Source: Bacteroidales bacterium | GTDB lineage: Bacteria; Bacteroidota; Bacteroidia; Bacteroidales; UBA932 | Reading direction: 5' to 3' | DNA length: 47,414 bases | NCBI GenBank assembly: GCA_016290385.1 | Contig: JAEETO010000006.1 | Coordinates: 1 to 47,414, forward strand | Part shown: positions 8,977 through 24,451 of the stretch, piece after piece | Layout of the letters: every line of letters begins with the position of its first letter | How positions within the stretch are numbered: the stretch's first letter is position 1 | Made by a program: the position numbers and the translations under genes | Notes under the pieces: model-generated | Database searches by the model: none | Seen by the model: the letters and a program-made list of their open reading frames with translations, nothing else | What the model was told of the DNA's origin: nothing

Positions 8977-9001
8977 GAAGCTTTTATTACCCGAAAGCTT
9001 C
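8977..9001 (-). promoter_or_regulatory. Hairpin between riboswitch and btuB start (probable expression platform)
   Basis: Eight-base perfect arms (8977-8984 and 8994-9001) enclose a nine-base loop. On the minus strand the hairpin ends eight bases before the btuB ATG and has no U-tract, so it more likely blocks ribosome access than terminates transcription. Confidence 0.5.
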
Positions 9002-9009
9002 AAAAACAC

Positions 9010-9186
9010 CCGTTTCCGGCAGGTCTTCTGGCTCGTCCCCGTTCCGGCGCCTTCCCGCTCTGGGCAGTGGCTCTTGAATGCCGAAACAAACGTGTGGGAC
9101 TTACAGCAGCGGTGTCTGCTCAGGTCTCTCACCTGATTCCCTTTTCATCCGGACCTCCGGCAGGAAGTCCAGGACACCGGAAACGG
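9010..9186 (-). promoter_or_regulatory. Cobalamin riboswitch
   Basis: Read on the minus strand, the leader contains the conserved core elements of the adenosylcobalamin/cobalamin riboswitch: AAAAGGGAATCAGGTGAGA, then GTAAGTCC, GCCACTG, CGGGAAGG and the B12 box GAGCCAGAAGACCTGCC (plus-strand positions 9018-9034). The two ends form a perfect ten-base-pair outer stem (9177-9186 with 9010-9019). It starts just after a promoter -7 box and lies 41 bases before btuB, so it should repress the six-gene uptake operon when cobalamin is plentiful. Confidence 0.95.
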
Positions 9187-9189
9187 CCG

Positions 9190-9197
9190 CAAATATA
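9190..9197 (-). promoter_or_regulatory. Promoter -7 box of the btu operon
   Basis: The minus strand reads TATATTTG followed by CGG, a match to the Bacteroidota consensus TAnnTTTG. Transcription would start within a few bases of the riboswitch outer stem. Confidence 0.75.
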
Positions 9198-15466: not shown

Positions 15467-15474
15467 TATATTTG
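15467..15474 (+). promoter_or_regulatory. Promoter -7 box of the histidine operon
   Basis: TATATTTG followed by CAG. A possible -33 TTG lies at 15442-15444. The leader-peptide ATG begins five bases after the box, so the transcript may start at or next to that ATG. Confidence 0.75.
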
Positions 15475-15478
15475 CAGC

Positions 15479-15541
15479 ATGAGAAATCGCAGGAATAATA
15501 ACTGGCACCTCCATAATCACCACATCCGGCCGATGCGGTAA
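15479..15541 (+). CDS. hisL: His/Asn-rich leader peptide of the histidine operon
   Basis: A 20-codon open frame runs from an ATG right after the promoter to TAA at 15539-15541. It has four His codons (10, 12, 14, 15) and five Asn codons (3, 6, 7, 8, 13). It ends 86 bases before hisG. The codon content matches the two amino acids made by the operon, His from hisG-IE and Asn from asnA. Its last sense codon and stop lie in the antiterminator arm. It has no similarity to enterobacterial HisL beyond the His richness, and translation is inferred from the logic of the attenuator. Confidence 0.75.
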   Translation: MRNRRNNNWHLHNHHIRPMR

Positions 15542-15598
15542 GCCAGTTTATTTTATTGATTGACAATTAATTAATAATAAATAATACGGGACTTGCCG
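15536..15598 (+). promoter_or_regulatory. Antiterminator pairing of the his attenuator
   Basis: CGGTAAG (15536-15542, the last leader codon plus the stop) pairs with CTTGCCG (15592-15598), the 5' side of the terminator, in seven base pairs including one G-U. The pairing can extend by CC (15543-15544) with GG (15589-15590) across one bulged A. A ribosome that stalls at His or Asn codons leaves this arm free; one that reaches the stop covers it. Confidence 0.65.
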
Positions 15599-15619
15599 AA
15601 TACGCAGGTCCCTTTTTTT
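15588..15619 (+). terminator. Attenuator terminator before hisG
   Basis: Nine-base arms (15588-15596 and 15604-15612, one G-U pair) enclose a seven-base loop and are followed by seven T residues (15613-15619). It lies between the leader peptide and hisG, nine bases before the hisG ATG, so it is a premature terminator and not the end of the upstream gene. Confidence 0.85.
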
Positions 15620-15627
15620 GTGTTGCT

Positions 15628-16506
15628 ATGAATCTGTTACGAATGGCCATCCAGGCCAAAGGCCGCCTGAACGAAGACAGCGTGGCACTGCTGCGCGACA
15701 TCGGCATCAGGATCGACGACAGCAAACGGAAATTTCTCGCCCAGGCACCCGACTTTCCGCTCGAAGTGCTCTATCTGCGCGACGACGACATCCCTCAGGT
15801 CGTGGCGGCCGGAACGGCCGACCTGGGCATCGTCGGCCTCAACGAAGTAGCCGAGCACAGTCCGGACGGCACTCCGGAAGGATCCTCGCTGCAGATTGTC
15901 CGTCAACTGGGATTCGGCGAATGCCGTCTGTCCCTGGCCGTCCCCAAATCAGAAGACTGCGACGGTCCTGCCTGGTTCAGCGGCAAACGGATCGCCACCT
16001 CCTACCCGAACATCCTGCGCCGGTATCTGGCCGACCATCAGGTAGAGGCCATCATCGAAGTCATCGCCGGATCCGTCGAAGTCGCTCCGGCAGCCGGGAT
16101 CGCCGATGCCATCTTTGATATTGTATCATCCGGCGGAACCCTGATTTCCAATGGATTGAAAGAAGTCGAGCGGGTCTTCCCCTCCGAAGCCGTTTTGATT
16201 GCGGGCGCTTCGATGACGGCAGAAAAACAATCGCTGCTGAATGAGATCCTCTTCCGTATCGATTCGGCGGTCGTCAGCAGCAAAAAGAAATACCTGGTGA
16301 TGAACCTGCCCGAAAGCGCCATCGATGAGGCCGTGGTGATCCTGCCCGCCATGCGCAGCCCGACCATCATGCCTCTTGCTGCCAAAGGCTGGTACGCCAT
16401 GCACGCCGTCATCGAGGAATCGCTGCTCTGGCAGAAAGTCCGCCAGCTGAAGGCCATCGGGGCAGAAGGAATCCTGGTACTGAGCATTGACAAAATCATC
16501 CCGTAG
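15628..16506 (+). CDS. hisG: ATP phosphoribosyltransferase HisG (long form)
   Basis: This 292-residue enzyme catalyses the first step of histidine synthesis, joining ATP and PRPP. The N-terminal motifs are MAIQAKGRLNEDS and the substrate-loop AAGTADLGIVGLNEV. The PRPP-binding stretch is EVAPAAGIADAIFDIVSSGGTL near residues 150-172, and the C-terminal third is the ACT-like regulatory domain of the long form, so HisZ is not needed and feedback inhibition by histidine is expected. It is the first structural gene after the attenuator. Confidence 0.95.
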   Translation: MNLLRMAIQAKGRLNEDSVALLRDIGIRIDDSKRKFLAQAPDFPLEVLYLRDDDIPQVVAAGTADLGIVGLNEVAEHSPDGTPEGSSLQIVRQLGFGECRLSLAVPKSEDCDGPAWFSGKRIATSYPNILRRYLADHQVEAIIEVIAGSVEVAPAAGIADAIFDIVSSGGTLISNGLKEVERVFPSEAVLIAGASMTAEKQSLLNEILFRIDSAVVSSKKKYLVMNLPESAIDEAVVILPAMRSPTIMPLAAKGWYAMHAVIEESLLWQKVRQLKAIGAEGILVLSIDKIIP

Positions 16507-16508
16507 CC

Positions 16509-18863
16509 ATGGACATCCTGCTTTACCCTCCGCAATCACAATGGGCCTCGCTTTGCCGGCGGCCGCTCCAGGATGATCCGCAAGTGCGGACACGCGTCGC
16601 TTCCATTCTGGAACGCGTCCAACGCGAAGGCGACAGCGCTTTGCGGGCCCTGTCCGTCGAGATCGACGGGCGGGACGCAGCCCTGGAAGTCACTCCGGAG
16701 CAACTTCGTGCCACTGCCGCACAAGTCAGGCCGGCCGTGCAGGAAGCCATCCGGCAGGCCGCCGCCAATATCCGGGCTTTCCACCTGGCCCAACTTCCCC
16801 AGGAAATCCGGGTGGAGACCATGCCCGGTGTCTGCTGCATCCAGCGGCCGGTGCCTATCCGCCGCGTCGGCCTGTATATCCCCGGCGGTACGGCGCCGCT
16901 CTTCTCGACCGTATTGATGCTCGCCATTCCCGCCGCGCTGGCAGGCTGCCGCGAAGTCATCCTCTGTTCTCCCGCGGGGGATTCCGGAGAAATCGCCCCG
17001 GAAGTGCTTTATGCGGCACAGTATTGCGGCGTCCGGCGCATCTTCCGCGTCGGCGGCGCACAAGCCATCGCCGCCATGGCCTACGGGACAGAAACCATAC
17101 CTCAGGTCGACAAGATTTTCGGCCCCGGCAACCGCTATGTCACCACTGCCAAGCAACTGGTGGGCGAACAGGCCGTTGCCATCGACATGCCGGCCGGCCC
17201 CTCTGAAGTCATGGTCATCGCCGACGATGCCGCCTCCCCGTCATTCGTGGCGGCGGACCTCTTGTCCCAAGCCGAACACGGGCCCGACAGCCAGGTGATG
17301 CTGGCCTGCCTGTCGGAAGCTTTTGCACAGAAAGTACTTGCTGAAGTCGAACGGCAACGGCAGCTCCTTTCACGTGGAAAGATGGCTGCCAAGGCCCTGT
17401 CACACAGCTCCATCATCGTCTTCCACAAGCTGGAGGAAGCCGTAGGACTGGCCGAAGCCTATGCGCCCGAGCACCTGATCCTCGCCCTGGAAGATCCCTG
17501 GAAAGCAGCCGACGGCATCACGGCGGCCGGCAGCGTCTTCATCGGATCCTGGTCTCCGGAAAGCGCGGGAGACTATGCTTCAGGGACCAACCACACCCTC
17601 CCCACCAGCGGATGGGCCCGGTCCTACAGCGGTGTAAACGTCGAGAGTTTCATGCGCAGGATGACCCTGCAGGAAATTTCGCGGGCAGGATTGGAACGGC
17701 TGGCCCCCACCATCCGGAATATGGCGACGGCCGAAGGGCTCGACGCACATGCCCGTGCCGTCGACATCCGCATGGCTGCCGCTCCGGAACAATCCGGTCC
17801 GGACTGTTCCTCGTCCGGCGTGCAATCACTGATGCGAGCCAATATCCGGGCCCTGACGCCCTACTCTACCGCGCGGGACGACTGCTCCGGAGCGCCGGAA
17901 GTCTTTCTGGACGCCAACGAGAGCCCGTACAGCACAGGATGGAACCGCTATCCGGATCCCCGGCAGCGCATACTGAAACAAGCCATCTCCGCTTTCAAGG
18001 AAGTCCCTGTAGATAATATTTTCCTCGGCAATGGCAGCGATGAAGCCATCGACCTGCTGTACCGCGTTTTTTGCGAACCTGGAAGAGATCAGGCTCTCAT
18101 CGTCTCGCCCAGCTACGGCATGTACAGCGTAGCGGCACAGACCAATGACGTATCCGTGTGCCCGGTTCTTCTGGAGGAAGGCTATGCCCTGCCCGCAGCC
18201 GCCATCGCTGCCGCCACGACACCCCGCACCAAGCTCCTGTTCATCTGCAGTCCGAACAATCCCACCGGCAACGCATTTCCGCCCGAAGAGCTGGTCGCTG
18301 TCATCCGCGCCTTCCCGGGCATCACGGTATTGGACGAAGCCTACGCCGACTTCAGCGCAAAAGGGTCCCTGCTTCCCCGCCTGGCCGAATTCCCCCGCCT
18401 GGTCATCCTGCAGACCCTTTCCAAAGCCTGCGGGCTGGCTGGACTCCGGATCGGGATGGCCTTTGCCGCCCCGGAAATCATCCGCACTTTCGACCAGGTG
18501 AAATACCCTTACAATATCAACCAGCCTGCCCAGGAACTGGCTCTGGAAGCCCTCCGGCTAGGAGCCACCCGTCACGTAGCCGAAATCTGCGAACAACGGG
18601 AAATCCTTGCCCGCAAGCTTCCCGGATTCTCCTTTGTCCGGAAGGTATATCCCAGCGACGCCAATTTCCTGCTTGTGCGCGTAGACGATCCGAAACGGGT
18701 CTACGACCATCTGCTGGACGACGGCATCATCGTCCGCGACCGCAGCCGCGTTCAGCTGTGCGAAGGCGCACTCCGCATTACCGTAGGCACGCCGGCGGAA
18801 AACCGGCGCCTGCTCGATTCCCTTGCTGCTTTTGAAAACCTCAACCCCTCTGACCCCTCATGA
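16509..18863 (+). CDS. hisDC: Fused histidinol dehydrogenase - histidinol-phosphate aminotransferase
   Basis: One open frame of 784 residues covers two enzymes that are normally separate. Residues 1-420 are HisD, with GPGNRYVTTAKQLV, DMPAGPSEVMVI, the zinc ligands in SQAEHGPDSQV, the catalytic EHLIL pair and DYASGTNHTLPTSG. Residues 442-775 are HisC, with FLDANESPY, PNNPTGNAF, DEAYADFS and the PLP lysine in LQTLSKACGLAGLRIGM. A 20-residue Ser/Pro-rich linker joins them, and Met442 (17832) would be the start of a free HisC. All catalytic motifs are intact. HisC acts just before the phosphatase and HisD catalyses the last two oxidations, so they flank the HisB phosphatase step. Confidence 0.9.
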   Translation: MDILLYPPQSQWASLCRRPLQDDPQVRTRVASILERVQREGDSALRALSVEIDGRDAALEVTPEQLRATAAQVRPAVQEAIRQAAANIRAFHLAQLPQEIRVETMPGVCCIQRPVPIRRVGLYIPGGTAPLFSTVLMLAIPAALAGCREVILCSPAGDSGEIAPEVLYAAQYCGVRRIFRVGGAQAIAAMAYGTETIPQVDKIFGPGNRYVTTAKQLVGEQAVAIDMPAGPSEVMVIADDAASPSFVAADLLSQAEHGPDSQVMLACLSEAFAQKVLAEVERQRQLLSRGKMAAKALSHSSIIVFHKLEEAVGLAEAYAPEHLILALEDPWKAADGITAAGSVFIGSWSPESAGDYASGTNHTLPTSGWARSYSGVNVESFMRRMTLQEISRAGLERLAPTIRNMATAEGLDAHARAVDIRMAAAPEQSGPDCSSSGVQSLMRANIRALTPYSTARDDCSGAPEVFLDANESPYSTGWNRYPDPRQRILKQAISAFKEVPVDNIFLGNGSDEAIDLLYRVFCEPGRDQALIVSPSYGMYSVAAQTNDVSVCPVLLEEGYALPAAAIAAATTPRTKLLFICSPNNPTGNAFPPEELVAVIRAFPGITVLDEAYADFSAKGSLLPRLAEFPRLVILQTLSKACGLAGLRIGMAFAAPEIIRTFDQVKYPYNINQPAQELALEALRLGATRHVAEICEQREILARKLPGFSFVRKVYPSDANFLLVRVDDPKRVYDHLLDDGIIVRDRSRVQLCEGALRITVGTPAENRRLLDSLAAFENLNPSDPS
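17786..17810. repeat. 25-base palindrome in the hisD-hisC linker
   Basis: GGAACA-A-TCCGG and CCGGA-C-TGTTCC are mirror arms around base 17798; 11 of the 12 positions in each arm pair. It lies in the linker codons, where an intergenic element would be expected if hisD and hisC were once separate. Confidence 0.6.
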
Positions 18864-19918
18864 AAAAAGCACTCTTTATCGACCGGGACGGCACCTTGCT
18901 TGTCGAACCTGCAGACGAACAGATAGACGCACTGGAGAAATTCGCCTTCGTTCCGGGTGCCATTTCCGGCATGAAGGCCCTTTCCGGCCTGGGATACGAG
19001 CTGGTAATGGTCAGCAACCAGGACGGTCTCGGCACGCCGGCTTTTCCGGAAGAGACCTTCCTCCCCTGCCAGCAATTGCTGCTGGACACCCTGCGCGGAG
19101 AAGGCGTAGTCTTCGACAATATCTTGATAGACAAAAGCTTTCCGGAAGACAACGCACCCACCCGGAAACCCCGTACCGGCTTGCTGAAAGAATACATGGA
19201 CGGCAGTTACGACCTTTCTGCCTGCTATGTGATCGGAGACCGGGAGAGCGATGTGCGGCTGGCTGCGAACCTGGGTGCCGTCGGCCTGCAGCTGGGACCG
19301 CTCAGCTGGGAGGACATCGTCCGGCGCATTCGCGGCGGCGTCCGCCGTGTCACCGTCGCCCGCAAGACCGCCGAAACGGACATCAGCGTCACCGTCGACC
19401 TCGACGGCCAGGGTGACTCCCGGATCGAGACCGGCCTGCACTTTTTCGACCACATGCTCACGCAACTCGTCCACCACGGCGGCATCTCCCTGTCGCTGCG
19501 CTGCCAGGGAGATTTGGAAGTGGATGAGCACCACAGCGTCGAGGATACGGCCATCGTGCTGGGCGAAGCCCTGCGCAAGGCACTGGGCGACAAGCGGGGC
19601 ATCGGACGCTATGGCTTCGCCCTCCCGATGGACGAAAGCCGCGCCCTGGTCCTGCTCGATTTCGGCGGCCGGAGCGAACTGGTGTGGGACGTGAGCTTCA
19701 CCCGGGAATACGTCGGTGACATGCCGACGGAACTGTTCCGCCACTTTTTCAAATCGCTGTCCGATGCGATGCAGGCCAACCTGTACGTCCAGGCACGCGG
19801 CGAGAACAACCACCATCTGGCCGAAAGCATTTTCAAGGCCTTTGCCCGTTCCCTGCGGCAGGCCGTCTCGCGCAACGTCTTTTCCTATGAAATACCCACC
19901 AGCAAAGGTTTGTTATGA
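18860..19918 (+). CDS. hisB: Bifunctional histidinol-phosphatase / imidazoleglycerol-phosphate dehydratase HisB
   Basis: This 352-residue fused enzyme has an N-terminal HAD phosphatase with LFIDRDGTLL (residues 5-14) and GDRESDVRLA, and a C-terminal dehydratase with the metal-binding motifs HFFDHML, DEHHSVEDTA and GENNHHLAE. The fusion order is the enterobacterial one. The start overlaps the hisDC stop by four bases and the stop overlaps hisH, so translation is probably coupled along the operon. Confidence 0.95.
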   Translation: MKKALFIDRDGTLLVEPADEQIDALEKFAFVPGAISGMKALSGLGYELVMVSNQDGLGTPAFPEETFLPCQQLLLDTLRGEGVVFDNILIDKSFPEDNAPTRKPRTGLLKEYMDGSYDLSACYVIGDRESDVRLAANLGAVGLQLGPLSWEDIVRRIRGGVRRVTVARKTAETDISVTVDLDGQGDSRIETGLHFFDHMLTQLVHHGGISLSLRCQGDLEVDEHHSVEDTAIVLGEALRKALGDKRGIGRYGFALPMDESRALVLLDFGGRSELVWDVSFTREYVGDMPTELFRHFFKSLSDAMQANLYVQARGENNHHLAESIFKAFARSLRQAVSRNVFSYEIPTSKGLL

Positions 19919-20502
19919 TAGCCATCGTCGATTATGCAGCCGGAAACATCCGCTCGGTAGCCAACGCCCTCGAGCGACTGGGCGCCCATTATGAAGTGAC
20001 AGCCGACCCACAACGCCTGCGGTCCGCCGACCGGGTCATCCTGCCCGGTGTCGGCCACGCCGGCCGCGCCCTGGAAAGCCTGCAGGAGCAGGATCTCTTC
20101 CCCGTCATCCGCTCGCTCCGATGCCCCGTGCTGGGTATCTGCGTCGGCATGCAGGTGCTCTGCCGCGATTCCGAAGAAGGGCCCGTGCAGGGCATCGGCA
20201 TATTCGACGCCCATGTGCGTCGTTTCCCCGATGAGGCGGACATCCGCGTCCCGCACATGGGATGGAACGCGCTCGGCAACCTGGACGGCAAACTGTTCCG
20301 CAATATTCCCAGCGGTGCGCACGTCTATTTCGTCCACTCGTATTATCCGACCCTTTGCTCGGATACGACGGCCACCTGCCGGCATGGTTCCACCCTTTTC
20401 AGCGCCGCGCTCCGCTATGAGAATTTCTACGGAACACAGTTCCATCCGGAAAAGAGCGGAGCGGTCGGACAACAAATCCTCCAGAACTTCCTTGCCCTAT
20501 GA
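19915..20502 (+). CDS. hisH: Imidazole glycerol phosphate synthase glutaminase subunit HisH
   Basis: This 195-residue class I glutamine amidotransferase hydrolyses glutamine and channels ammonia to HisF. The nucleophile is in LGICVGMQVL near residue 76, and the His-Glu pair is in FYGTQFHPEKSG near residue 180. It overlaps hisB and hisA by four bases at each end. Confidence 0.95.
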   Translation: MIAIVDYAAGNIRSVANALERLGAHYEVTADPQRLRSADRVILPGVGHAGRALESLQEQDLFPVIRSLRCPVLGICVGMQVLCRDSEEGPVQGIGIFDAHVRRFPDEADIRVPHMGWNALGNLDGKLFRNIPSGAHVYFVHSYYPTLCSDTTATCRHGSTLFSAALRYENFYGTQFHPEKSGAVGQQILQNFLAL

Positions 20503-21269
20503 CCGAGATCGTTCCCGCCATCGACATCATCGACGGACGCTGCGTACGCCTGACCCGGGGTGACTATGCGGCGGTCAAGGTCTATGATGCCTCTCCCGTC
20601 GATTCGGCACGGCGTTTTGCCGACTGCGGCGTCCGCCGCATCCACCTGGTGGACCTGGACGGCGCCAAGGCTGGTACGCCCTGCAACCTGACGACGCTGG
20701 AGGCCATTGCGAAAGCGGTTTCCTGTGAACTGGAATGGGGCGGTGGCGTGGCGTCAGAAGCTGCCCTCCGGCAGCTTTTCGACGCCGGCGCCACCCACGC
20801 GATCATCGGCAGCATAGCCGCCCTTCAACCGGAACGTTTCGCCGAATGGCTGGCGTGCCATGGTTCCCGTATGATTCTGGGCGCCGACGTACGGAACGGC
20901 CGTGTCGCCGTGCGCGGCTGGCAGGAGGAGGCGCCGCTGACGCTCGACATGCTGCTCCGCCGCTTCACGGACGATGCCGGCACGCCACTGCGTGAGGCCA
21001 TTGTCACGGACATTGGCTGTGACGGAATGCTGCAAGGACCCTCCCTGGCCTTATACGGCACGCTCGTCCAAAACTTTCCCATGCTATCCTTCACAGCCAG
21101 CGGCGGTGTCTCCTCCATGGACGATATCCGCTCCCTGGCGGCCGCCGGCATACCGAAGGCCATTGTGGGGAAAGCCATCTATGAAAATCGTATCACACTG
21201 AAAGACATATCCTTATGGTCGCTAAACGCATCATCCCCTGCCTCGACGTCAAAGACGGAAAAGTCGTAA
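20499..21269 (+). CDS. hisA: ProFAR isomerase HisA, overlapping hisF
   Basis: This (beta/alpha)8 enzyme isomerises ProFAR to PRFAR. Motifs are [18 protein letters not shown] at the start, the phosphate loops [11 protein letters not shown] and TASGGVSS, and the second acid in [14 protein letters not shown]. The open frame is 256 residues, about 12-15 longer than usual, because it continues 55 bases into hisF in another frame and ends in a Ser/Ala/Thr-rich tail ([10 protein letters not shown]). The fold ends at about ITLKDI, so the tail is an added read-through segment. It may be natural or the result of a small frameshift near 21210. Confidence 0.92.
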
Positions 21270-21985
21270 AGGGCATTCATTTCGAAGGACTCCGCCAAGT
21301 CGGCGATCCCGTGGAACTGGGAGCGGCCTACGCCCGCGAAGGTGCCGATGAGCTGGTCTTTCTCGACATCAGCGCCACCTTCGAGGGCCGGAAGACTTTC
21401 GCTTCTCTGGTGGAACGCATCGCGCGGGAAATCGACATTCCTTTCACCGTAGGCGGAGGCATCGCTTCGCCCGACGATGCCGCCCGCCTGCTGGATGCCG
21501 GCGCAGACAAGATCTCGCTCAACTCCGCCGCGCTCGCCGACCCGTCGCTGGTCAGTCGCATCGCCGGCCAGTACGGCAGCCAGTTCGTGGTGGTGGCCAT
21601 CGATGCGCGGAAAACCGGCGGCGACGCCTCTCCGTTCTGGACCTGCACCACCCACGGCGGACGAATCGCCACGGACCGCGAGCTCTTCTCGTGGGCACGC
21701 GAGGCACAGGAGCGCGGTGCCGGCGAGATCCTTTTCACATCCATGGACCATGACGGCACCTGCCAGGGTTTTGCCTGTGAACTGTACGCCTGCCTGCACG
21801 AGAGCCTGTCCATTCCGGTCATCGCTTCCGGCGGTGCCGGATCCCTGCAGGACATCGTCGAAGTCCTGACCACCGGAAAAGCTGACGCCGCACTGGCCGC
21901 CAGCATTTTCCACTACGGAACCCTGCGCATCCGCCATGTCAAGGAGGCACTCCGGGATGCCGGCGTACCCGTACGTCTTTCCTGA
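21215..21985 (+). CDS. hisF: Imidazole glycerol phosphate synthase cyclase subunit HisF
   Basis: This 256-residue (beta/alpha)8 cyclase pairs with HisH to form IGP and AICAR. The motifs are [16 protein letters not shown] (catalytic Asp), [21 protein letters not shown], and the second catalytic Asp in [10 protein letters not shown], then ASGGAGS. The length is typical. The start lies inside hisA (55-base overlap); the hisIE gene follows after 18 bases. Confidence 0.95.
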
Positions 21986-22003
21986 CACATCATTGAACGA
22001 ACC

Positions 22004-22627
22004 ATGCAATACGACGATTTCAAACTCGACAAGAACGGCGGACTGCTTCCCGCCATCATCCAGGACGCCCGCACCGGCAAGGTGCTGATGCTCGGCTATA
22101 TGAACCGTGAGGCTTTCGAAAGAAGCCGTGCGGAAGGCCTGGTCACTTTCTGGTCCCGCTCACGCCAGTGCCTGTGGACCAAAGGGGAAACCAGCGGCAA
22201 CTTCCTGCACATCCGGGAAATGTACAAGGATTGCGACGACGACACGCTACTCGTGACCGTCATCCCGGACGGCCCGGTCTGCCACCGGGGTACACGCAGC
22301 TGCTTCGACACGCCCGATGCCGAAGGATTCCTGGGTGAACTCCAGGCGCTTATCCACAGCCGGCACGAAGAACTCCCCGAAGGCTCCTATACGACCCGTC
22401 TATTTATCAAAGGCGTCAAGGCCATCGCCAAGAAAGTCGGCGAAGAGGCCGCCGAGACGATCATCGAAGCCGTCGACGGCAACCGCGACCGCTTCATCTA
22501 TGAGATGGGCGACCTCTTCTACCACCAGCTGGTGCTGATGGAGCAGATGGGCGTCTCCCTCGCTGACATCGAACAAGAACTGGCCCTCCGTCACAGGGTC
22601 CCTTCCTCCCCGAAAGAAAACAATTAA
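22004..22627 (+). CDS. hisIE: Bifunctional PR-AMP cyclohydrolase / PR-ATP pyrophosphatase HisIE
   Basis: This 207-residue fusion catalyses steps two and three. The N-terminal HisI domain has MLGYMNREAFE, TFWSRSRQCLWTKGETSGN and the zinc cysteine in PVCHRGTRSCF. The C-terminal HisE domain has GSYTTRLF, KKVGEEAAETIIEA and EMGDLFYH, the all-alpha NTP-pyrophosphohydrolase pattern. It lies between hisF and asnA, with short gaps of 18 and 12 bases. Confidence 0.95.
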   Translation: MQYDDFKLDKNGGLLPAIIQDARTGKVLMLGYMNREAFERSRAEGLVTFWSRSRQCLWTKGETSGNFLHIREMYKDCDDDTLLVTVIPDGPVCHRGTRSCFDTPDAEGFLGELQALIHSRHEELPEGSYTTRLFIKGVKAIAKKVGEEAAETIIEAVDGNRDRFIYEMGDLFYHQLVLMEQMGVSLADIEQELALRHRVPSSPKENN

Positions 22628-22639
22628 AACATATCCATC

Positions 22640-23677
22640 ATGTCACTCATCATTCCCAAAGACTACCGCAACCTGCTCGGCGGACTCGAAAACACCGAGA
22701 AAGCCATCAAGGCCGTAAAAGACATGTTCCAAAGCAACCTGTCCGCCCAACTGGCGCTTCTGCGCGTCACCGCACCCATCGTGGTCCTTTCCGGAACCGG
22801 CATCAACGACGACCTGAACTCCGTGGAGCGGCCCGTCTCCTTCCCCATCAAGAGTCTGAACGAACAGAAAGCCGAAGTGGTGCATTCCCTCGCCAAATGG
22901 AAAAGGCTCAAGCTCGGCGAGCTCGGCACCCGACCCGGACGCGGCATCTACACCGACATGAACGCCCTCCGTCCTGACGAGGACCTGGACAACCTGCATT
23001 CCATCTATGTGGACCAGTGGGACTGGGAGAAGGTCATCCGCAAGAAGGACCGGAACCTGGCCTTCCTGAAGATGACGGTACGGCGGATCTACGAGGCCAT
23101 CAAGGTCACGGAGAACCGGCTCTATGTCGAATTCCCGGAGATCGAGCCGGAACTGCCTGAAGAGATTTTCTTCATCCATGCCGAAGAACTGCGCCGCCGC
23201 TACCCGGAGCTGACGCCCAAGGAAAGGGAGAACGCCATCGTCAAGGAGCACAAGGCGGTGTTCATCATCGGCATCGGAGGAGCGCTCGACGACGGCACCA
23301 TCCACGACGGACGTGCTGCCGACTACGATGACTGGAGTACGCCCAACGAAGACGGTTTTCTGGGCTTGAACGGCGACATCCTGCTGTGGAACAAACTCCT
23401 CGACTGCGCCTTCGAGGTATCCAGCATGGGCATCCGTGTCGACGAAACCGCCATGCTCCGCCAGCTTGATATCCGGGGGCAGTCGTGGAAGAAAGATCTC
23501 TATTTCCACCGGAAACTCCTCGCGGGGGAGCTTCCCTACACCATCGGCGGCGGCATCGGTCAGTCGCGCCTATGCATGTACCTGCTGCGCAAGGCCCACA
23601 TCGGAGAAATCCAGTCCGCCATCTGGCCGGAAGCCATGCGCGAAGCCTGCCTGCGCGCCGGCATCGAATTAGCCTGA
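22640..23677 (+). CDS. asnA: Aspartate-ammonia ligase AsnA
   Basis: This 345-residue ammonia-dependent asparagine synthetase is related to class II aspartyl-tRNA synthetases. Family stretches are FPIKSLNEQKAEVVHSLAKW near residue 70, DQWDWEKVI near 130, FLGLNGDILLWN near 240 and TIGGGIGQSRLCMYLL near 305. It follows hisIE after 12 bases with no promoter or terminator in between, so it is the last gene of the attenuated operon. The Asn codons of the leader peptide suggest that this placement is functional. Confidence 0.95.
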   Translation: MSLIIPKDYRNLLGGLENTEKAIKAVKDMFQSNLSAQLALLRVTAPIVVLSGTGINDDLNSVERPVSFPIKSLNEQKAEVVHSLAKWKRLKLGELGTRPGRGIYTDMNALRPDEDLDNLHSIYVDQWDWEKVIRKKDRNLAFLKMTVRRIYEAIKVTENRLYVEFPEIEPELPEEIFFIHAEELRRRYPELTPKERENAIVKEHKAVFIIGIGGALDDGTIHDGRAADYDDWSTPNEDGFLGLNGDILLWNKLLDCAFEVSSMGIRVDETAMLRQLDIRGQSWKKDLYFHRKLLAGELPYTIGGGIGQSRLCMYLLRKAHIGEIQSAIWPEAMREACLRAGIELA

Positions 23678-23692
23678 TAGCGCGGGGAACTG

Positions 23693-24451
23693 TCAGCTGC
23701 GGCAGATGACGCTGCCGCTGGCCTGGTGGGTGGCCAGGATCAGGACTTCGGAAATCTGGACGTGGGCCGGGGCCTGGGCGGCGTAGAGCGCCACGTCGGC
23801 AATGTCGTCGCCTGTCAACGGCTGAATGCCCTGGTAGACTTTGGCGGCACGCTCCGTGTCACCGTGGAAACGGACATTGCTGAAATTGGTTTCGACCAGG
23901 CCGGGCTTCAGGTTCGTCACGCGGACCGGTGTGTGCGCCAGGTCGATACGCAGTCCGTCGGACAGCGCTTTCACGGCCGCTTTGGTTGCACAATAGACGG
24001 CCCCGCCGGCATAAGCGGCGTCACCGGCCACCGATCCGATGTTGATGACATGGCCGCGCAGGCGCTCCACCATCCCGGGAACCACAAGCCGCGTCATGTA
24101 GAGCAGACCCTTGACATTGGTGTCGATCATGGTCTCCCAATCGTCAAAATCTCCGGCATATTCGGGCTCCAGGCCCAGCGCCAGGCCGGCATTGTTGACC
24201 AGGACATCGATCTCGCGCCAGGCAGCCGGCAGCGAATCGAGCGCCCTTTTCACCGCGTCGCGGTCACGCACGTCAAAACACAGCGTCAGCACTTCGACAC
24301 CGAATTCTTTTTCCAGTTCTCCGGCCATCACGGCCAGTTGTCCCGCGCGCCGTCCCGTCAGGATCACGCGGTATCCCGCACCGGCAAATTTCCGGGCGCA
24401 GGCGGCGCCGATCCCGCTGGTGGCGCCGGTTATCAAAGCGATTCTTTTCAT
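23693..24451 (-). CDS. Short-chain dehydrogenase/reductase
   Basis: This 252-residue classical SDR has the cofactor motif TGATSGIG at residues 8-15, the NNAG motif, the catalytic serine in INIGSVAGD, and the YxxxK pair in YCATK near residue 154. The Arg-rich TGRRAG after the second strand suggests NADP(H). It resembles the YdfG group (3-hydroxy acid or serine dehydrogenase), but the substrate is not determined. It converges on asnA with 15 bases between stops. The ATG lies a few bases from a weak -7-like TAACTTCG, so the mRNA may be nearly leaderless. Confidence 0.85.
   Translation of the reverse strand: MKRIALITGATSGIGAACARKFAGAGYRVILTGRRAGQLAVMAGELEKEFGVEVLTLCFDVRDRDAVKRALDSLPAAWREIDVLVNNAGLALGLEPEYAGDFDDWETMIDTNVKGLLYMTRLVVPGMVERLRGHVINIGSVAGDAAYAGGAVYCATKAAVKALSDGLRIDLAHTPVRVTNLKPGLVETNFSNVRFHGDTERAAKVYQGIQPLTGDDIADVALYAAQAPAHVQISEVLILATHQASGSVICRS

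Follow-up and report, generated by a model that had tools for sequence, protein, structure and literature searches.

When asnA stands at the end of a histidine operon, does the leader in front of that operon answer to histidine alone, or to asparagine as well? The question is raised by the window analysed here (the whole stretch of 47,414 nt), in which hisG, a fused hisD-hisC, hisB, hisH, hisA, hisF, hisIE and asnA follow one another in one direction behind a leader rich in both His and Asn codons. The original prediction was that this leader may sense two amino acids.

The his-asnA operon and its leader region

All genes of the operon lie on the forward strand: hisG (nt 15,628–16,506; TIGR00070/TIGR03455), hisD-hisC fused in one ORF of 784 codons (nt 16,509–18,863; TIGR00069 and TIGR01141 in the same ORF), the bifunctional hisB (nt 18,860–19,918; NF003937), hisH (nt 19,915–20,502; TIGR01855), hisA (nt 20,499–21,269; TIGR00007), hisF (nt 21,215–21,985; TIGR00735), hisIE (nt 22,004–22,627; NF002747) and, as the last gene, asnA, encoding aspartate–ammonia ligase (nt 22,640–23,677; TIGR00669). 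Names follow NCBIfam models matched over their curated cut-offs, except for hisA, which falls just under (218.1 bits; cut-off 228.95), and the matches agree with the predicted operon of hisG to hisIE with asnA at its end. The gap between hisIE and asnA is 12 nt, and the promoter motif TAnnTTTG does not occur in nt 22,001–22,660, the span around this junction. Between hisIE and a porin gene, the window has asnA and, convergent to it, a short-chain dehydrogenase gene (together nt 22,640–24,451); the sister locus (L002) has the porin gene directly after hisIE. AsnB was considered as a second route to asparagine and set aside: among 10 same-genus genomes not one has a match above the cut-off, and neither the window's own genome nor the sister genome G035 has one. 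In another his-asnA operon (L021), the hisD and hisC parts match as separate stretches, unlike the fused ORF of the window. Elsewhere in the window, a cobalamin riboswitch (RF00174, 107 bits) lies on the reverse strand at nt 9,001–9,196.

The predicted leader ORF, MRNRRNNNWHLHNHHIRPMR, occupies nt 15,479–15,541 on the forward strand and has 20 codons, with an ATG at nt 15,479 and a TAA stop at nt 15,539–15,541; it was read from the sequence, and His leaders occur at the corresponding place in relatives. Its four His codons are numbers 10, 12, 14 and 15, and its five Asn codons are numbers 3, 6, 7, 8 and 13. Asn codons 6–8 form a run (nt 15,494–15,502), whereas Asn codon 13 is enclosed by the His-rich stretch of codons 10–15 (H L H N H H; nt 15,506–15,523). 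The −7 box of a probable promoter, TATATTTG (nt 15,467–15,474), ends 4 nt before the ATG and follows the Bacteroidota promoter motif. The spacing from box to ATG is the same in L002 and L003, and several relatives have a similarly short one. The box would leave room for a 5' UTR of no more than a few nt, and the leader mRNA is therefore probably leaderless or close to it.

Three helices are predicted downstream. In the 1:2 (protector) stem, found by folding, the 5' arm ACUGGC (nt 15,501–15,506), which opens with Asn codon 8, pairs with the 3' arm GCCAGU (nt 15,542–15,547). The arms in the sister are GCUGGC and GCCGGC, a compensatory change, and in a permutation test own pairs beat 10,000 swapped arrangements, by a gap too modest to carry weight here (−14.7 vs −12.8 kcal/mol). 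The intrinsic terminator (nt 15,588–15,619) consists of the hairpin GGGACUUGC(CGAAUAC)GCAGGUCCC (nt 15,588–15,612), with a stem of 9 bp, and a T7 tract (nt 15,613–15,619). Its 5' arm doubles as the partner of region 2, CGGUAAGCC (nt 15,536–15,544), which comprises the final leader codon, the stop codon and the next bases and serves as the antiterminator arm. The leader RNA folds better than 200 of 200 dinucleotide shuffles (z = −2.97). The leader with four His and five Asn codons, the terminator with its T7 tract and the rival pairing between nt 15,536–15,544 and the terminator's 5' arm had all been proposed beforehand and are present where they had been placed; the covariation of the rival pairing exceeds all 500 shuffles as well as the slid controls.

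A histidine attenuator across the Bacteroidales

The survey sample comprised 80 GTDB loci together with same-genus genomes, all of them assemblies and many metagenomic; no leader was found at 18 loci. His-rich leaders followed by terminators lie upstream of hisG in this sample, giving 61 distinct leader peptides. A table of 57 sets of leader and terminator was drawn from these, omitting the 18 leaderless loci, 9 duplicate peptides, 4 leaders lacking a downstream terminator and 3 repeats. Covariation was assessed in an alignment of 56 sequences, the window included. In the antiterminator helix, 90.3% of cells are paired, 36 cells are changed on both sides and the covariation score is 0.308; the corresponding values for the terminator helix are 90.2%, 87 and 0.403. 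By all three measures both helices exceed 500 of 500 shuffles, and their covariation scores also exceed all slid controls. Cruder measures are weak for the antiterminator: its number of pairs changed on both sides was matched by 68 of 500 shuffles and its number of pair types by 95 of 500.

A covariance model built from this alignment (R1) gave matches at E ≤ 0.01 in 171 of 198 genomes of the order, many of them partial matches to the terminator alone, for which reason full-length matches were used. The best 30 full-length loci, the window among them, come from 22 families, and all 30 have a His leader and terminator before hisG. Of 20 further loci, 15 have the same arrangement, four have no hisG match and one has hisG but lacks the unit. 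The window attenuator has no Rfam match at gathering score, and for the His_leader family (RF00514) in particular there was no covariance-model match either at that score or up to E 10. The absent Rfam match is the one observation that would fit a chance resemblance with no working attenuator behind it, a reading that we regard as extremely improbable in the face of the covariation in 56 sequences and the presence of the unit upstream of hisG throughout the order.

In five operons (L125, L128/L147, L130, L131 and L308), two leader and terminator units stand in tandem before hisG. The attenuator can also outlive its operon, as three same-genus genomes have lost most his genes: in G017 (L091/L137) a hisG fragment is fused into the end of hisIE behind the kept attenuator, in G015 (L141) hisIE is the sole his match behind it, and in G016 (L138) no his query matched and a hisIE-like 3' end appears to lie after it.

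Ribosome stalls were modelled along the window leader, with the ribosome's leading edge set at 10 or 13 nt beyond the A site (A+10, A+13) and a strong antiterminator taken as at least 70% of the maximum. It is obtained for stalls at codons 5–17 (A+10) or 4–16 (A+13), with 7–9 expected antiterminator pairs within this relief range; the pairs are lost further on, and there are none with the ribosome at the stop codon. The range includes His codons 10, 12, 14 and 15 and Asn codons 6, 7, 8 and 13, and excludes Asn codon 3; it also contains a few Trp, Leu, Ile and Arg codons, where a modelled stall would relieve termination too. For a truncated transcript free of ribosomes, the model expects 5.8 pairs in the antiterminator and 3.1 in the 1:2 stem, and thus makes the protector a weak helix. 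Pairing between the stop-codon region and the 5' arm of the terminator is possible in all 57 sets, over 6 bp or more, though weakly in some. The scan yields an antiterminator in 55 of them, the exceptions being L003 and L064; the modelled relief ranges cover 236 of 243 His codons, and in none of the 55 is there relief once the ribosome has reached the stop codon.

Taken together, the covariation of the rival helices, the stall scans and the order-wide occurrence before hisG bear out the reading as a His attenuator, and the window element is almost certainly a ribosome-mediated his attenuator of this order-wide kind. In the proposed mechanism, a ribosome supplied with plenty of His and Asn would run to the stop codon and cover region 2, the terminator would form and transcription would end. 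A ribosome stalled anywhere from about codon 4–5 to codon 16–17 would mask the 5' arm of the 1:2 stem and leave region 2 free to capture the terminator's 5' arm, and RNA polymerase would continue into hisG and on to asnA. Because four Asn codons lie in the relief range, asparagine shortage would relieve termination if the ribosome stalls there, and we infer that a shortage of charged Asn-tRNA would stall it. The device would thus follow an OR logic, in which a lack of either charged His-tRNA or charged Asn-tRNA opens the his-asnA operon.

Asparagine codons with and without asnA

His-asnA operons account for three of the 153 asnA loci read (the window, L021 and L147, the last from genome G542), a count into which the window and L021 entered via hisG and not via asnA, and in which short context can hide linkage (34 of the 140 fetched loci span less than 9 kb, 10 genus loci have flanks of 1.5 kb, and contigs break). 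Across the order, asnA is present in 158 of 393 genomes; 140 of 150 listed loci were fetched, to which the window and G542 were added, with 8 left out at that stage. The window's family has asnA in at least 190 of 398 genomes. Outside the genus, coordinates in 138 asnA genomes of the family were compared by eye, and asnA lies in the his operon in none of the 102 that also bear hisG; the nearest pair is 14 kb apart (G100). In the genus itself (40 genomes, 11 with asnA), asnA is linked to his genes in the window alone. No linkage was found in L226, where a hisF-like match lies on the other strand only.

The original prediction also held that Asn codons in related leaders should track the presence of asnA. 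L021 was set aside as evidence either way, as its hisG is directly preceded by a promoter-like box and has no attenuator. The remaining case, G542, belongs to a different family from the window and carries asnA between hisB and hisH; the his-asnA arrangement therefore probably arose separately in the two. Two tandem attenuators precede its hisG, with leaders MRNLYFNNNHHYLPENR and MRNYFNINHFNYHHPMEKVQR holding 5 and 4 Asn codons; both give an antiterminator, and the relief range takes in every His codon of the two leaders, together with 4 of the 5 Asn codons in the first and all 4 in the second. Its sole relative in a family represented by two genomes, G429, has no asnA match and a leader (MNYNTLHLHHHLFAQARR) with 2 Asn and 4 His codons. 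The window stands in a similar relation to its sister, represented by L002 and G035, which have an identical leader and are probably the same species. HisG of this sister is 94% identical to that of the window, asnA is absent, and its leader (MIARRNNSWHHHTHHIFPMR) has 2 Asn and 5 His codons vs 5 and 4 in the window.

Leader and asnA status are both known for 95 his operons, after 13 of unknown linkage were dropped and with three remnants of lost operons included; among operons at order level, the label 'unlinked' was assigned from asnA coordinates. The highest Asn counts in this set are those of the window and G542, with 5 each, and the other 93 range from 0 to 4. Asn codons outnumber His codons in the leaders of these two operons alone (Fisher test, 2.2e-4, on a measure chosen post hoc). 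With the window set aside, G542, which came to light after the tracking prediction had been made, ranks first of the remaining 94 operons (about 1 in 94). GC content was rejected as the cause of the Asn codons (z = 3.96 for the window, 3.53 and 2.58 for G542), although the leader of L091 (MYARNNNNHHHHHIFLR), from a same-genus genome without asnA, also has more Asn than its GC would predict (z = 2.91). We infer that selection raised the number of Asn codons after asnA had entered the his operon.

Against this stands the possibility of a His-only attenuator, in which the Asn codons owe their presence to an ancestral trait of the genus, their AAY triplets building the 5' strand of the 1:2 stem, and asnA simply rides along. 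It is suggested above all by same-genus genomes that have no asnA match and still have Asn runs before the His run (e.g., MYARNNNNHHHHHIFLR, MSQRINSNNHHHHPISDR and MSRTFNNKHHHHLVLER); among the genomes of the genus that have a leader, 2 or more Asn codons are found in it in 3 of 5 with asnA vs 6 of 7 without. In L085–L088, the Asn codons sit in helices of 7–9 bp of the AACAAC/GUUGUU type formed with the segment after the stop codon (shuffle p 0.000–0.030), and Asn codon 8 of the window likewise lies in the 1:2 stem (p 0.012), whereas the best helix overlaps just one of the three Asn codons of the window's run and neither of the two in the sister's, and no significant helix is found in L003 and L091. 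The model places the Asn run outside the relief range in L086 and L087 and within it in L002, L085 and L088. Asn codon 13 within the His stretch of the window speaks against a purely structural role, as does the top rank, among 95 operons, of both his-asnA leaders from different families. On balance the His-only alternative is a conceivable one to which we give the smaller share of our belief.

Some of what it proposes appears to hold for the ancestry of the codons. Asn makes up 9.5% of the non-His residues of his leaders vs 2.3% in the His enzymes of the window, and it occupies position −2 in 19 of 61 distinct his leaders. As asnA-less same-genus genomes have Asn runs, several of them in a stem, Asn codons 6–7 of the window probably predate the arrival of asnA, and placing Asn before the His run would be, in part, an ancestral and structural habit. 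On tracking, the evidence is divided: 2 of 2 his-asnA operons with an attenuator (the window and G542) show the expected high counts, a sample of two, while L021 lacks an attenuator and leaders of the same genus carry Asn runs in the absence of asnA.

Asn-rich leaders before asnA and the proposed two-input reading

Further evidence comes from asnA loci outside his operons. At 17 of 149 loci, in 8 families, asnA is preceded by a terminator and, ahead of that, by a leader in which 4 or more codons in a stretch of 8 are Asn (L167, L175, L182, L196, L206, L212, L222, L230, L231, L235, L255, L256, L261, L269, L279, L285 and L286); examples are MYNLNNNFNNNNFSP (L175), MTAINNNNLNNNALNNNPFRSTEVIMCKL (L182) and MARFFLNNNNNNCPP (L222). 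Under a stricter criterion of 5 codons in 8, such leaders are found for Asn at 16 of 149 loci and for no other amino acid. As a control for the 17, tiles from these loci yield no Asn case (0 of 4703). If the count is restricted to stretches that have a terminator-like site, Asn-rich ones number 17 of 26 before asnA vs 0 of 176 among the tiles. Stall scans of the 17 leaders give an antiterminator in 14 at a threshold of 3 expected pairs and in 13 at 4, the value applied to the his leaders; 101 of 101 Asn codons of the 14 lie within the relief range, a weak test, as most ranges begin at the start codon. Of 20 asnA loci lying in the family of the window but not in its genus, a single one (L322, MFKRTNNLLNNNLNNNPVQTGRLWH) shows an Asn leader plus terminator, and L321 has an Asn-rich ORF for which no terminator was detected; within the genus, no Asn leader is seen at any of the 10 asnA loci examined. 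A second terminator lies nearer to asnA in L167, L206, L255, L269 and L279, which may be tandem attenuators. By their sequence features, the leaders before asnA are candidate asparagine attenuators, and as such they suggest that asparagine is usable as an attenuation signal in this order, providing a context for hybrid his leaders.

These leaders bear on two of the alternatives. A His-only attenuator leaves them unexplained, and together with G542 they speak against the view, suggested by the comparison of genus and family by itself, that the Asn codons are purely structural and unrelated to asnA. They also bear on the idea that Asn codons slow the ribosome, as a matter of RNA polymerase timing, or join the Trp, Leu and Ile codons in a general starvation detector. 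Relief at any codon from about 4–5 to 16–17 in the stall model would allow for this, whereas enrichment for Asn alone before asnA argues for an amino-acid-specific use of these codons, and we consider the idea very unlikely.

The reading of the window leader as a sensor of two amino acids thus finds support in part: its Asn codons lie in the relief range and high Asn counts go with asnA, but Asn runs also occur without asnA and are often paired in a stem. L021, with no attenuator, and the Asn runs of asnA-less same-genus genomes limit confidence in it, and G542 and the Asn leaders before asnA add to it. From the sequence comparisons, we consider it reasonably likely that the window attenuator is an OR-type His/Asn sensor. 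For the broader proposal, that a his leader gains Asn codons when asnA joins its operon and so becomes a two-input sensor, that this happened at least twice independently and that asparagine attenuators stand before asnA itself, we lean slightly towards acceptance.

The his attenuator of Escherichia coli and Salmonella (RF00514) resembles that of the window in its leader ORF with His codons, its terminator, its antiterminator and the position of hisG as the first gene. The window differs in an antiterminator built on the stop codon, in its Asn codons, in the probably leaderless ORF and in the presence of asnA in the operon. Attenuators of E. coli can be multivalent, that of thr sensing Thr and Ile and that of ilvGMEDA sensing Leu, Val and Ile. 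As in the window, one leader there has codons of several amino acids and the operon serves several; however, the amino acids of thr and ilvGMEDA share one pathway, whereas His and Asn do not, and the Asn specificity would come with the added gene. In Firmicutes, asnA or his genes can be under the control of T-box RNAs that recognize uncharged Asn-tRNA or His-tRNA. Unlike the leader-peptide device of the window, T-boxes bind tRNA directly and have no leader peptide.

Of the published accounts, PMC1183508 lists thr and ilvGMEDA as attenuated operons. His attenuators of Firmicutes, according to PMC9413887, have three to five consecutive His codons with a terminator and antiterminator before his operons; this layout resembles that of the window, in another phylum and for His only. 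For Flavobacterium psychrophilum, which belongs to the same phylum as the window, the portion of PMC9723704 at hand reports clues to leader-peptide attenuation before amino-acid biosynthesis operons, the same kind of device, and names in that portion neither the amino acids nor a dual leader. PMC7366714 describes sORFs in B. thetaiotaomicron that are reminiscent of leader peptides, and PMC8305728, on Bacteroidota his genes, mentions attenuation once in the portion available, in its general introduction; the main text of PMC2965389 contains no Bacteroid- term. In the literature searched, some of it available in part (including PMC3766115 and PMC4833913), no description was found of a leader-peptide attenuator for Asn, of a leader for His and Asn together or of the his attenuator of Bacteroidales, and the survey of Lopatovskaya et al. 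(2010) may cover some of this. The original remark that no described His leader also senses Asn is in line with this literature, to the same extent.

The control of amino-acid synthesis in Bacteroidales is little described in the literature searched, and the present comparison adds an order-wide his attenuator, supported by covariation, for this major group of the gut and rumen. If the two-input reading is true, a regulatory leader would have picked up a second specificity, for the product of another pathway, as a gene belonging to that pathway entered its operon. Asparagine would then join the list of amino acids to which leader-peptide attenuators respond, and the codon content of a leader would follow the gene content of its operon.
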